Below, piece after piece: positions 8,548 through 31,035 of a DNA stretch of 42,652 bases. The position numbers and the translations under genes are program-made. The number at the start of each line of letters is the position of its first letter. Position 1 is the stretch's first letter. The notes under the pieces were generated by a model. That model searched no databases and had not been told where the DNA came from. It worked only from the letters and a program-made list of their open reading frames with translations. Source of the DNA: Candidatus Shapirobacteria bacterium (GTDB lineage: Bacteria; Patescibacteriota; Microgenomatia; UBA12405); contig JAQVSI010000005.1 in the NCBI GenBank assembly GCA_028700625.1, positions 1-42,652 of the forward strand. The letters are read 5' to 3'.

Positions 8548-8632
8548 AATCCCCCATCTTCCGACAGGGGATTCAAATGTTTTTTTAAGTCTCCCTTTTA
8601 TCAAGGGGAGATGTCTGAAGGACAGAGGGGTT
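8548..8632. repeat. REP-like multi-hairpin element between convergent genes; probable bidirectional terminator
   Basis: AATCCCC(8548-8554)...GGGGATT(8567-8573) followed by T7; CTCCCTTTTATCAAGGGGAG (8591-8610); TGTC-TGAAG-GACA; GAGGGGTTT. Resembles 30272-30320. Confidence 0.75.
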
Positions 8633-9255
8633 TAAAAACCTCTAGCCAACTTTCTGAAATAAAATCCACCAGAAGCAGTTAATGTAACTAAAATTGTTTT
8701 AACAATAAGATCAGAAGCACCAGTATTGGGGACAGTATTTTTACCAATAAAATAACTGGCATTATCACTGTCGCTTAAATTATCAACCTTAGCTTCAACA
8801 TTATTAGTTTCTTTAGTAAGAACACTAATTTTTGTAGAATCTTTTATTTTAGCTCTGATTAAGTATTCCTTAGATTGACCTGGGTCTAATTTATCAATAG
8901 TCCATTCAACTAAATTTCCTTTTTCATTAAAAGTTCCTGGATTAAAAATTAGTCCTAAATATTTTGGTAAAGTATCTCTAACTTTAATATTATTTAAAGT
9001 TTCTTTTCCAGTGTTTTCCACTTTAATTTGAAACTCAATTACATCTTTTTCAAAAAATGTTTTTCTTGAAGCTTCAATATTATCAAAATATTGAGTATCA
9101 CCTATAGCTCTAATTTTTTTATCGATTGAGATTTCTTTATTATTCTCACTTTGAGAATAATATTGACCATAGGCCTTAAGAGGACTGAATAGCGAAAAAA
9201 ACAAGATTGCTATTGCTCCGAAGATAAAACTGATATTTAATATTTTATGTTCCAC
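8632..9255 (-). CDS. DUF11-like surface protein with LPxTG-like C-terminal sorting signal
   Basis: Signal peptide; VIEFQIKVENTGKETLNNIKVRDTLPKYL (DUF11-like); C-terminal VPNTGAS + hydrophobic helix + RKLAR tail; GTG start. Confidence 0.75.
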   Translation of the reverse strand: MEHKILNISFIFGAIAILFFSLFSPLKAYGQYYSQSENNKEISIDKKIRAIGDTQYFDNIEASRKTFFEKDVIEFQIKVENTGKETLNNIKVRDTLPKYLGLIFNPGTFNEKGNLVEWTIDKLDPGQSKEYLIRAKIKDSTKISVLTKETNNVEAKVDNLSDSDNASYFIGKNTVPNTGASDLIVKTILVTLTASGGFYFRKLARGF

Positions 9256-16955: not shown

Positions 16956-18194
16956 ATGTTTAAAATAAGTAAAAAAATATGGATTCCACTTCTAGTAGGT
17001 GTTATTATCCGTGTTTTTTTAATGTTTTCTACATACCATCCAGATCTCGCTGGTCAAGGTTTATCTTCCTATTTTTGGGGATTTAAAAATGTCACCAATG
17101 TTTATGAACACCTTCAATCTCTTCCTCCGACCGATCCACTGGTCAAAAATTTTGGTGTTAATGATATTTTTATTTATCCACCTTTAACCTATTTCACCCT
17201 TGGTACTTTTCAAAAAATATTTGCTTTTACCGGTTTGGGCCACTTTTTAGAAACCATCATGTCTGGTGTTAATATCTATAAAATTACAGGGCTTTCTTTT
17301 TATCTTTTTATAATAAAACTTCCTTATCTCTTTTTTGATTTAGCGATTGCCTATTTTTTATATAAATATTTTGACACTCCACGTCAAAAATATTTAGCTT
17401 TTATTTTTTGGATTTTTAATCCAATTACTTTATACGCCACTTTCTGTATGGGGGTTTTTGATATTATCCCTGTATTTTTCACTGTTCTTGCCGCTTATTT
17501 CCTCAAAAAACAAAAACTATCTCTTTCTGTCTTAGCTATCGGTTTTGGAATTGCTTTTAAAATGTACCCTGTCTTTTTATTGCCTTTTATTATTTTCAAA
17601 TCAGATAAATGGCTTCAACGTATAAAATTATCGATTATTGCTTTTTTACCGTTAATTGTTACCAATCTTCCATTTATTTTCTCTTCAGCTTATCGTTATA
17701 TGGTTTTTAGTAGTAAAAATTCAAAAATGCTTTATATGCAATGGATGCTTTCTGGAGCCGAAGGTTTATTTCCATTTCTTTTAATTTTAGTTTTTATTTA
17801 TCTTCTTTCACAAAACAAATCACTTCGACCAAAATTTTACATTTCTTATTTTTTTGTCTTCTTTTTATTACTTTTTTCCGTAACCCACTTCCATCCTCAA
17901 TGGTTCGTTTGGATCAGCCCTTTTTTAATAATTGAAATAATAAATTATAAATTCAAAGAAGCTTGGGCTTATTTAGCTTTAATGTTAATTTATATATTTA
18001 TAATTTTTACCTTCGAAAATTCTCTTTCAGTTGGCTTATTTGCCCCCATAAACCCCACTCTAGCTTCTTTTGTTGGCACTCAAACTATTCTTACCAAAAC
18101 TACCGATATCAATCAATTAAAAAGTTATTTTCGTAGTATTTTTGCTGGAATTTCCGCTTATTTAGCCTTTACTCATCTTAAAAAAAGTGTTTAA
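16956..18194 (+). CDS. Polytopic mannosyltransferase-like membrane protein (GT87/PIG-M-like GT-C)
   Basis: Multiple TMs; FWIFNPITLYATFCMGVFDIIPVFFTVLAAYFLKK...GFGIAFKMYPVFLLP. Confidence 0.7.
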   Translation: MFKISKKIWIPLLVGVIIRVFLMFSTYHPDLAGQGLSSYFWGFKNVTNVYEHLQSLPPTDPLVKNFGVNDIFIYPPLTYFTLGTFQKIFAFTGLGHFLETIMSGVNIYKITGLSFYLFIIKLPYLFFDLAIAYFLYKYFDTPRQKYLAFIFWIFNPITLYATFCMGVFDIIPVFFTVLAAYFLKKQKLSLSVLAIGFGIAFKMYPVFLLPFIIFKSDKWLQRIKLSIIAFLPLIVTNLPFIFSSAYRYMVFSSKNSKMLYMQWMLSGAEGLFPFLLILVFIYLLSQNKSLRPKFYISYFFVFFLLLFSVTHFHPQWFVWISPFLIIEIINYKFKEAWAYLALMLIYIFIIFTFENSLSVGLFAPINPTLASFVGTQTILTKTTDINQLKSYFRSIFAGISAYLAFTHLKKSV

Positions 18195-19911
18195 AAAAAA
18201 GTTTTTTTTACCATTATTGCTCTTGGTTTTAACTATTCCTGCTTTTTTCTTTTTTTTAAAACCAGGAAATCTCTATTGGAATATGCAAGACGACATGCAA
18301 ATGATGCGTCAATTAGAGTTTGAAAAATGTTTAAAAGATGGCCAAATTCCTTGTCGTTGGAATCCAGATCTTGGTTTTGGATACGGTTATCCTCTGTTTA
18401 ATTTCTACCCCCCACTTCCTAGTTTAGTTGGTCAAATATTTCGTACTTTTTCCTTATCTTTTGTTCAAAGTGTAAAATTTACTGCTGTTCTCCAATTTGT
18501 TTTAGCAGCACTTTTTATGTATTTACTTGCCAGTTCTCTTTTTGGTAAATTTGGTGGCTTTATTTCTGCCCTTTTTTATACTTATGTCCCTTATCACGCT
18601 CTTAATATCTATGTTAGAGGGGCTATGAACGAAGCTTGGGCTGCAGTTTTTTTTCCTCTAATTTTTTATTTTTCCAGAAAAATTATTCTCAAAAAGAAAA
18701 TCATTGACATTTTAGGGTTAGGAATCTCTTTTGCTTGTTTGTTTTTGTCACATAATCCCATGGTTCTTACTTTTACTCCAATACTTTTTGTTTGGGTGTT
18801 ATTTTGGTTGTGGCAAACCTATAGATTAAAAGTCAAACTAATGATTCCTTCAGTTGTTAAATTAATTTTTTCTGGTCTATTAAGTCTTTCTTTAGCTGCT
18901 TTTTTTACTCTTCCTGTTCTGTTTGAAACAAAATTAGTTCAAGTAGAAAGCATGTTTCAAAACTATTATTCTTTTTCAGCTCACTTTGTCAGTATTAAAC
19001 AATTATTCTTCAGTAACTTTTGGGGTGATGGTCCTTCAGTGTGGGGGACTGCTGATGGTATGTCTTTTATGGTTGGTTTTGTTTATTGGATTTTGGCTAT
19101 TCTAACTGTCTTTTATTTTACTTTTATTTCAATTAAAGATAAAAAGATTGATCGTAAACTATTACTACCAATCCTTCTTATTTTTATCGGTTTTATCGCT
19201 ATTTTTATGACTCATGAAAGATCCACTTTTTTATGGATTACTTTCAAAGAAATTCAAAAAGTCCAATTTCCTTGGCGTTTTTTAAATCATAGTGCTTTTC
19301 TTTTTTCTCTTTCGGCAGGAATTTTACCTTACATTTTAAATAAAATATTTTCTAAAAAAATTGCCATAAGTATTATTATTTCTATTTTAATTTTTCTTTT
19401 TGCTACGAATATTTCTCATTTTTATCCCATTTATAGTGGACCTCTAACCGACGATCAAAAATTTTCCGGCAACAGTTGGACACGCCAAATAACTTCAAGC
19501 ATTTATGATTATTTACCAAAAACAGCAAGTATTGCCGCCAAATCAGCTGCAAAACCTTATGTCGATAATATCGAACCTCAAAAAGCTTTTGTTAGTTTTT
19601 CTGGTGAAAAAAAAGGTACCGATTGGTTATTTTTTAATTTATTTTTAAATCAAGAAGCCAAAATTACAATTTCTCAACTAGCTTTTCCAAACTTTGAAAT
19701 AACCGACAAAGGTGAAAAAATAGATTATAAAATTGAACCAGAACTCGGTCGCATGGTGATAGATCTAAAAAGCGGGGATCATCAAATTTATGTTAAATTA
19801 AAAAACACACCAATAAGAACTATTTCTAATTATATTTCATTATTTGCATGGTTGGGATTAGTTTTATATCTATTAAAGCCTCTATGGAAGAAATTGATCT
19901 TCAGGAAATAA
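18187..19911 (+). CDS. Large polytopic membrane protein (YfhO-like / '6-pyruvoyl-tetrahydropterin synthase-related' class)
   Basis: MQDDMQMMRQ...GQIPCRWNPDLGFGYGYPLFNFYPPL, FPWRFLN, C-terminal beta domain ending NTPIRTISNYIS; GTG start. Confidence 0.7.
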   Translation: MFKKKFFLPLLLLVLTIPAFFFFLKPGNLYWNMQDDMQMMRQLEFEKCLKDGQIPCRWNPDLGFGYGYPLFNFYPPLPSLVGQIFRTFSLSFVQSVKFTAVLQFVLAALFMYLLASSLFGKFGGFISALFYTYVPYHALNIYVRGAMNEAWAAVFFPLIFYFSRKIILKKKIIDILGLGISFACLFLSHNPMVLTFTPILFVWVLFWLWQTYRLKVKLMIPSVVKLIFSGLLSLSLAAFFTLPVLFETKLVQVESMFQNYYSFSAHFVSIKQLFFSNFWGDGPSVWGTADGMSFMVGFVYWILAILTVFYFTFISIKDKKIDRKLLLPILLIFIGFIAIFMTHERSTFLWITFKEIQKVQFPWRFLNHSAFLFSLSAGILPYILNKIFSKKIAISIIISILIFLFATNISHFYPIYSGPLTDDQKFSGNSWTRQITSSIYDYLPKTASIAAKSAAKPYVDNIEPQKAFVSFSGEKKGTDWLFFNLFLNQEAKITISQLAFPNFEITDKGEKIDYKIEPELGRMVIDLKSGDHQIYVKLKNTPIRTISNYISLFAWLGLVLYLLKPLWKKLIFRK

Positions 19912-29307: not shown

Positions 29308-31035
29308 ATGAAAAATAAAAAAACTCTAATACTTCTAATTTGTTTATTTTTAGTTTCCGTAATTACCTTCTATCGTCTTCTTCGCCCTGGTTATTTTTCT
29401 ATGATGGATGACATGCATGTCTTCAGACTCGATCAGCTTGATATATGCCTAAAAGATGGACAATTTCCTTGTCGTTTTATTAAAGACGGGGGAATGGGTT
29501 ATGGTCATCCTCTTTTTAATTATTATTCACCTCTGGCCTATGGGGTTGCTGAGTTTTTTCATCTTTGTGGCTTCAGTCTTATTAATAGTCTTAAAATAAC
29601 CTTTGCTTCTTGTCATTTAATTGGTGTTTTCGGCATGTTTTTCTTTGCTAGTCTTTTTTGGGGCAATTTAGGCGCTTTTGTTTCAGCCATCATCTTTCTT
29701 TTAGCTCCATATCAAGCCACTGATAGTTTTGTTCGTGGAGCTATTTCTGAATCTTTGGCCATTAATATAATTCCTTGGATCTTCTATTTTTTAACGAAAT
29801 TTATTAACCAACAAAAAAACAAAAAATGGAAATTAAAAATTGGAAATTGGGGTTTAATTATATCCCTAACAGCTATTCTCCTAAGCCATAATCTCATCAG
29901 CTTAGCCATCGCTCCAATTCTTGTTGTTTACTCTCTTTTTCTGTTAATAAAAAACAAAAACCTTAATTTAAAATCAATTTTAAATCTTTTGTTTCCTGTT
30001 TTAATTTCTGTTGGTATAAGTGCTTTCTTTTTATTGCCAGCACTTTTTGAAAAGAATTTAGTCACCATCGACACCATGACTCAGGGATATTTTAACTATA
30101 TAATTCATTTTGCAACCCTATTTCAGCTCTTTATTTCTCGTTTTTGGGGTTTTGGAGCTTCTCTTTGGGGCCCAATCGACGACATGGCATTCTCTATTGG
30201 TCTTGTTCAATGGTTAATACCATTAATAACAGTTTTATTTTTATTTTTCAAAAAAATATTGAAAAAGAAGGTCCTCCTTGTCAAGGGAGGATGTCCTGAT
30301 TTATCAGGACAGGTGGGTTTAATATTACTATTCTTTTTCTTTTTTCTATTTTCAATCTTTCTAACTCACAACAAATCAACTTTCATTTGGAAACTTTTTC
30401 CTTTTATGTCTTTCTATCAATTTCCTTGGCGTTTTCTTTCAATTTCCATTTTTACTTCGTCCTTTATTGCTGGTTCGTTAATTTCATTTATTAATAAAAA
30501 ATATCAAATATTAATTGTTGTAGTTATTTCACTCCTTACCATTATTTTAAATTTTTCCTATTTTAAAGAAGACATCTGGTTTTCAAATTTAACCGATGTT
30601 CAAAAACTTTCTTCAACTGAAATAGTTAAACAAAGTGGAGCTGGACTAAAAGATTACTGGCCAAAATATGGTCAATCATTTCCTACCACTTTTGCTCCAA
30701 CCGAACTCACCGTTTCTAATGATGTTGTTATTAAAAATTATATTAAAAAAAGTAACAAAATTAGTTTTGATTTCATTGCTAATTCAAACAGTAAAATAAC
30801 AGTTCCTTTGGTTTATTTTCCAAATTGGAAACTCTTTGTCGATGATAAAATTACAGATTTTGAAATTAGTAAAGACTTGGGCCTAATCGAATTTGATGTC
30901 GTCCCCGGAAACCATTCTGTTTTATTGAAATTAACCAACACTCCAATAAGAACCATAAGTAATCTAATTAGTATTATTAGCTTAGCTTTAGCTATAATTG
31001 TAAGCATCAGATTGAAATTTAAAAATGAAAAATAA
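29308..31035 (+). CDS. Large polytopic membrane protein (YfhO-like class), paralogue of 18187..19911
   Basis: MMDDMHVFRLDQLDICLKDGQFPCRFIKDGGMGYGHPLFNYYSPL, FPWRFLS, NTPIRTISNLIS. Confidence 0.72.
   Translation: MKNKKTLILLICLFLVSVITFYRLLRPGYFSMMDDMHVFRLDQLDICLKDGQFPCRFIKDGGMGYGHPLFNYYSPLAYGVAEFFHLCGFSLINSLKITFASCHLIGVFGMFFFASLFWGNLGAFVSAIIFLLAPYQATDSFVRGAISESLAINIIPWIFYFLTKFINQQKNKKWKLKIGNWGLIISLTAILLSHNLISLAIAPILVVYSLFLLIKNKNLNLKSILNLLFPVLISVGISAFFLLPALFEKNLVTIDTMTQGYFNYIIHFATLFQLFISRFWGFGASLWGPIDDMAFSIGLVQWLIPLITVLFLFFKKILKKKVLLVKGGCPDLSGQVGLILLFFFFFLFSIFLTHNKSTFIWKLFPFMSFYQFPWRFLSISIFTSSFIAGSLISFINKKYQILIVVVISLLTIILNFSYFKEDIWFSNLTDVQKLSSTEIVKQSGAGLKDYWPKYGQSFPTTFAPTELTVSNDVVIKNYIKKSNKISFDFIANSNSKITVPLVYFPNWKLFVDDKITDFEISKDLGLIEFDVVPGNHSVLLKLTNTPIRTISNLISIISLALAIIVSIRLKFKNEK
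29827..29850. repeat. Degenerate heptanucleotide repeat (GGAAATT-type) inside CDS
   Basis: tggaaattaaaaattggaaattgg: 23/24 identity to nt within 16291-16322; encodes WKLKIGNW. Confidence 0.7.
30272..30320. repeat. REP-like double-hairpin element inside CDS
   Basis: TCCTCCTTGTCAAGGGAGGA followed by TGTCCTGA-TTTA-TCAGGACA (perfect 8-bp arms) and GGTGGGTTT; matches the layout at 8590-8632. Confidence 0.7.

Follow-up and report, generated by a model that had tools for sequence, protein, structure and literature searches.

A putative mobile element with the layout of a class II intrastrand triplex motif, carried in frame by genes of a CPR-type genome

A repeated element within a membrane-protein gene

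A repeat of about 50 nt, one copy of which lies inside a membrane-protein gene, is interpreted here as a short, non-autonomous mobile element of the class II triplex type, which would move as a single strand with an enzyme supplied in trans and of which in-frame copies would be retained (probability about 0.7). The best reading is that of a mobile triplex element that behaves like the Rickettsia palindromic elements. The window, which is the whole 42,652-nt stretch of DNA analysed, is contig C19 of an 813-kb CPR-type genome (55 contigs, 97% complete), and its relevant features are listed in Table 1.

The sequence reported in the first-pass annotation is present at its position within an intact 575-aa ORF. 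Its place was correctly given as 30272-30320, but not its limits, as the element with the tail GGTGGGTTT included occupies about 30268-30322. The in-ORF copy folds into two adjoining hairpins of 9 and 7 bp, and its folding energy is -24.3 kcal/mol, as compared with -14.6 +/- 2.8 for shuffled sequences (z -3.5). An intergenic copy in the window was said to share this layout and orientation, and does so. The TTTAA tail of the intergenic copy provides the stop codon (TAA, minus strand, 8632-8634) of the gene at 8632-9255, and a short inverted repeat, AATCCCC..GGGGATT, is found directly upstream at 8548-8573.

Table 1. Location of the element copies, their parts and the related reading frames in the window
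Feature	Coordinates	Strand	Description
Host ORF, 575-aa membrane protein	29308..31035	+	PF10131 match; homologues in 54 of 57 genomes
Paralogue of the host ORF, without the element	18187..19911	+	Sequence comparison
Element copy in the ORF	30268..30322	+	Covariance model R1 positions 1-49; 44 bits, E 8e-12
Hairpin 1	30271..30292	+	Pyrimidine arm GTCCTCCTT (30271-30279), loop gtca, purine arm AGGGAGGAT (30284-30292)
Hairpin 2 (loop 2 of the triplex layout)	30292..30311	+	TGTCCTGAT-tt-ATCAGGACA, perfect 9-nt palindrome
Tail	30312..30320	+	GGTGGGTTT; triplex-code mirror of the hairpin 1 purine arm, 7 of 7 positions
Insert-spanning peptide, example			KVLLVKGGCPDLSGQVGLILL
Intergenic copy	8587..8635	+	Between convergent genes; top match in the genome, 72.6 bits

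The insert was absent from every orthologue that was aligned across the site, the closest of these being 76, 58, 52 and 50% identical, and the alignment clearly places it in a protein loop. The corresponding site in the nearest species is CAAAAAAAACAAAAAAAATCTTAGC, and locally that species has a net 45 nt less. As the aligned orthologues do not carry the insert, it was therefore gained in frame on the lineage of the 813-kb genome. The paralogue likewise has no comparable stretch, as had been claimed. The in-frame capture of a repeated palindromic element, proposed from the window alone, is thus upheld by orthologues without the insert and by many genomic copies; orthologues all encoding the same insert, or a lack of further copies, had been named as grounds for abandoning it, and the orthologues do not encode the insert while further copies are abundant. 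The insertion had also been called recent, which holds only in the sense that it is specific to the lineage.

Given 76% protein identity to the nearest genome, the junctions are too diverged to define exact ends or a target duplication. Some of the net length differences at the compared sites are 30-45 nt, i.e. below the length of the element; either flanking bases were altered at such sites, or some of the 'empty' sites are losses. That the stretch is an ordinary ancestral protein loop resembling the repeat by chance is scarcely credible: the aligned orthologues and the paralogue are without it, the covariance-model E value of the in-ORF copy is 8e-12, no supporting point was found, and this reading is counted as already refuted.

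Architecture of the element

The architecture was assessed in a set of 122 copies from the 813-kb genome and its nearest relative, G007. Hairpin 1 has its pyrimidine arm first and its purine arm second. Hairpin 2 varies between copies, with 49 distinct arm sequences among the palindromic ones, and is mostly palindromic; a perfect stem of at least 4 bp is present in 72 of 92 long middles, as compared with 11 for shuffled middles. For hairpin 2, pair counts on the model alignment, which was fitted to the structure, agree, with 94% of cells paired and both-sided changes at 5 of 5 pairs.

The description as a double hairpin is correct for the two hairpins but omits the main regularity, which lies in the tail. 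The purine arm GGGAGG is found with tails GGAGGG or GGTGGG, GGGGAG with GAGGGG, GGGAG(A) with GAGGG(A), and GGAGAG with GAGAGG. The tail is thus a mirror of the arm in which T is allowed over A, and this is the code of an antiparallel purine-motif triplex (G on G; A or T on A). In the 813-kb genome and G007 the code is kept at 755 of 800 tail positions (94%), and 70 of 110 distinct copies are perfect over at least 7 positions. When tails were permuted among these copies, the score fell by 11 standard deviations, a figure to be read with the relatedness of the copies, as the family includes perhaps only seven or eight independent stem types, far below the copy number. In five other genomes the code is kept at 371 of 393 positions (94%; permutation z 8.6). 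In the MiaA copy of G005, which has a new stem, TTTCCCTT..AAGGGAAA, the tail AAAGGGTTTT again fits. A direct-repeat tail, which would form Watson-Crick pairs with the pyrimidine arm, was considered and rejected, agreeing at 70% of positions and perfectly in 1 of 110 copies.

A crossed test, in which identical stems were searched for with the tail either mirrored or direct, was made in IMG/VR viral contigs and is the more independent of the tail tests. Mirrored and direct tails were found in 44:0, 1:0 and 33:0 stretches, some of the contigs being near-duplicates. Since the tail mirrors the purine arm under the triplex code, the element is, as judged from its sequence, a predicted class II intrastrand triplex motif whose loop 2 holds a palindromic hairpin of variable sequence, and it may form a triplex in vivo.

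The copies might instead have arisen through replication errors, namely template switching at palindromes and slippage, rather than transposition, with palindrome correction keeping hairpin 2 perfect. A hairpin 2 that is hypervariable yet perfect, an orientation tied to replication and the finding of no transposase linked to the element would fit this account. However, local errors would account neither for the conservation of arms, loop and tail at about 86 unlinked sites nor for copies at sites that are empty in relatives; both call for a source that is copied, which makes this account quite improbable.

Copy number and distribution

The family was searched for using BLAST with two copies and then with a covariance model, R1, built from ten copies with the 30268 copy excluded; a subset was used because MAFFT misaligned the variable hairpin when given all copies. 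A search of the genome and its relatives for further copies had been advised, and in the 813-kb genome R1 matched at 88 places with E <= 0.01, two of which are a palindrome re-read on the other strand. Hence, about 86 distinct copies are present, one per 9-10 kb, and the target sites are AT-rich. Among the 57 genomes searched, 28 of the 35 assigned to the same taxonomic family (the 813-kb genome included) have at least one match, with 0-85 copies each, whereas only three isolated matches with E between 0.001 and 0.01 were found outside the family. As G004, which belongs to the same genus, has no R1 match, the repeat family is dispensable.

An exact DNA pattern searched against named genomes gave two matches, both in Patescibacteria and one of them in Candidatus Shapirobacteria, though this pattern is too strict to indicate distribution. 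Going by these two matches, the 813-kb genome probably belongs to a CPR bacterium of the Microgenomates type. A plasmid search returned a single weak cyanobacterial match. Searches of the open-licence literature gave no account of elements of this type from CPR bacteria. Similarly laid-out repeats are probably common in other phyla. Many uncultivated viral contigs (loci L232-L308) each have several mirror-tailed motifs.

Several genes hold more than one copy. In the 813-kb genome, the genes for a DUF4012 protein (C12:17461-20475, -) and a TraG-like ATPase (C12:31053-33584, -) each include two or three, and a 499-aa ORF of G007 includes three within about 200 nt (G007 C12:124366-124575). Two of the last three encode an identical peptide, and duplication of an element-containing segment is suggested at this locus.

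In-frame occurrence in genes

About a third of the copies, 23 of 75 in the 813-kb genome and 17 of 47 in G007, lie in ORFs of at least 100 aa, and all of these are in frame. No gene split out of frame was detected among the remaining copies of the two genomes; two flagged ones (C55:9391 and G007 C1:172) likewise proved to be in frame by arithmetic from the reported frames. The host genes include those for ribonucleotide reductase, tRNA synthetases, RecG, Rho and MiaA, together with a RadA-like ATPase, RsmA, TsaC-TsaE, PheT, a RarA-like ATPase, MutM and glycosyltransferases.

Insert-free orthologues were seen in both directions when the 813-kb genome and G007 were compared. The insert is present only in G007 in ribonucleotide reductase, CysRS, another class I tRNA synthetase and a mannosyltransferase-like membrane protein, and only in the 813-kb genome in RecG, a DUF2298 protein, an O-antigen-ligase-like protein and the ORF at 29308-31035. 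One MiaA copy is common to both genomes, and two MiaA loops carry copies in several genomes of the taxonomic family. The element enters genes repeatedly, and frame-breaking copies are presumably removed. Permissive loops are either hit anew or keep old, diverged copies. In the second MiaA loop of the 813-kb genome (C55; L310, about 2230-2260), an in-frame GTAG-type repeat, TGTAGGGACGAGGCATGACTCGCCC, is found where relatives have the triplex-type element.

Orientation relative to replication

On most contigs, the copies share a direction. Orientation and local GC skew have opposite signs for 61 of 75 copies in the 813-kb genome (binomial p 4e-8) and for 46 of 47 in G007 (binomial p 7e-13). Copies that share a contig are not independent of one another, but the majority agrees in 10 of 13 contigs or segments and 7 of 7 contigs, respectively. 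In stretches of five more genomes, 59 oppose the skew and 3 do not. This result is not circular, because the element's own G excess would push the skew the opposite way. Most of the exceptions in the 813-kb genome cluster in C39 and C50:38000-67819. An almost identical copy of the element is found at the ends of these two contigs, which may adjoin each other.

The strand of the nearest gene is matched by only 35 of 75 copies in the 813-kb genome and 21 of 47 in G007, and of the in-ORF copies, 39 of 40 oppose the skew and 19 of 40 are on the strand of the host gene. Orientation thus follows GC skew and ignores gene strand, and the element is therefore tied to replication. The same counts bear on the suggestion of an RNA element, a terminator or attenuator, that was captured by a gene; the in-ORF copy has a strong RNA fold and one copy lies between convergent genes, but orientation is independent of gene strand and no Rfam family matched anywhere in the window, making this reading very improbable.

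The strand with positive skew is normally the lagging-strand template, and on this basis the C-rich complement of the element would be part of the strand that becomes exposed in single-stranded form. The orientation rule argues for a single-strand, replication-coupled process. An element laid out as pyrimidine arm, purine arm, hairpin in loop 2 and mirrored third-strand tail would move or insert as single-stranded DNA, with the lagging-strand template, on which the C-rich complement lies, as its most likely target. The folded single strand may be what is recognised by a trans-acting enzyme, which could be of the HUH/Y1 type. Insertions that break the frame would be purged and in-frame ones in permissive loops would persist, so that the element would now be coding sequence in the host ORF and in essential enzymes.

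The strongest rival to such a replication-coupled process is random orientation at insertion, by any mechanism of movement, followed by selection against the orientation in which the triplex or hairpin stalls the fork. The third-strand geometry of the element would allow this, and triplex motifs are known from published work to block the progress of DNA polymerase in vitro and to be markers of unstable loci (PMC4666352). However, the bias is near complete in G007 and in the in-gene copies and is already seen in the highest-scoring, presumably youngest, copies, while a strand bias is absent for the E. coli motif described earlier (PMC4666352). Later selection is hence regarded as possible but rather unlikely.

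Search for a mobilising enzyme

A search for a RAYT or Y1 transposase elsewhere in the genome had been advised. The Pfam Y1_Tnp profile (PF01797) gave no match in the 813-kb genome, which is misleading, as it missed a RAYT-type (TnpA-REP) fragment that was detected with a profile from relatives at C39:25184-25531 (-; locus L145), where it is cut by the contig end. A RAYT is present in this form, though no link to the element was found. A GTAG-type palindrome, GTAGGGGCGCGGCGTGACGCGCCC, lies inside the coding sequence of this fragment and belongs to a separate, rarer GTAG repeat family of the same genome. Two element copies lie about 430-550 bp downstream of the fragment, with another gene between. 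Other RAYT loci are not enriched in the element, and a REPtron-like flanking of RAYT genes was not supported.

The identity of the element as a REP proper, mobilised by the RAYT of the genome, is consistent with the RAYT fragment, with the common occurrence of RAYTs in the taxonomic family, with the single-strand orientation signature of the element and with a weak correlation between element and RAYT numbers (rho 0.41, p 0.016, uncorrected for descent). It is nevertheless unlikely. Near an end of the element, a GTAG tag is found in 1 of 108 copies and a CGTC tag in 3 of 108, RAYT loci are not enriched, G003, G005 and G031 hold 20-34 copies and no RAYT match, and a different GTAG repeat exists and sits in the RAYT gene. 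The REP label of the first-pass annotation was accordingly dropped. Most simply, the GTAG repeats would be what the RAYT acts on, and the element would depend on an enzyme for which no linked candidate was found.

Implications

It is possible, though on balance doubtful, that class II triplex motifs are widespread single-stranded mobile elements, with the third strand forming part of the recognition signal, insertion occurring into the lagging-strand template and peptides being added to essential CPR proteins. Triplex motifs have so far been viewed as passive, instability-prone repeats. If they are mobile, their uneven copy numbers and the genome instability associated with them would be easier to account for, and the very small CPR genomes would harbour a natural insertional mutagen by which essential enzymes gain roughly 13-18 residues. 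The element unites three separate subjects, namely intrastrand triplex repeats, the protein-coding palindromes of Rickettsia and replication-coupled single-strand transposition, and the tail/arm and orientation rules make sharp predictions for any genome.

Comparison with known systems

Among bacterial class II intrastrand triplex motifs are the PIT elements and the TM motifs, such as BoxC/TM_ECO of E. coli (Holder et al. 2015, PMC4666352). Like these, the element is multicopy and G/C-rich and has a pyrimidine arm, a purine arm and a 3' third strand, with a reverse-Hoogsteen arm using GGC, AAT and TAT triplets over at least 6 positions. However, the search rule of the ITxF database allows a loop 2 of 1-6 nt, whereas loop 2 of the element is usually a hairpin of 10-25 nt; the middle is at least 7 nt in 92 of 113 copies, and about a fifth would pass. 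As this limit is a search rule and not structural, the family is called a variant of PIT/TM. TM_ECO is always intergenic, with no strand bias and no link to mobile elements, and its triplex was demonstrated in vitro and was not seen by in vivo footprinting (PMC4666352). In contrast, about a third of the element copies are in genes and in frame, orientation is strongly biased and there is evidence of both gain and loss at orthologous sites.

REPs carry GTAG or CGTC tags, and tagged REPs are sometimes intragenic (PMC3733652); TnpA-REP is the RAYT enzyme of this system (PMC6006769). The element is similarly a short, multicopy palindrome that is sometimes intragenic, in genomes that also encode RAYT proteins, but it has no GTAG/CGTC tag, no association with RAYT loci was found, and its mirrored tail lies outside the stem. 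By analogy, the IS200/IS605 family (IS608, ISDra2) shares a replication-fork-tied orientation and subterminal hairpins, and the orientation of the element is likewise fixed relative to replication. The element differs in having no transposase of its own and no demonstrated guide or cleavage sites, and in being only about 50 nt long.

Landing in genes without breaking them is a habit known mainly from Rickettsia. The Rickettsia palindromic elements (RPEs) are the known case of frequent in-frame capture (Ogata et al. 2000, 2002, according to a review, PMC10969869), and those of R. conorii end in CGTC (PMC3733652). Like an RPE, the element is a short palindromic repeat found in frame in many unrelated genes, including housekeeping genes, and has insert-free orthologues. 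Unlike RPEs of about 150 nt, it is about 50 nt long, has no homologous RPE sequence, occurs in another bacterial phylum, uses both strands for coding (19 of 40 sense) and has a triplex-code tail and no CGTC end. Together with an orientation relative to replication that was not found reported for either, the element combines the predicted structure of a triplex motif with the behaviour of an RPE.
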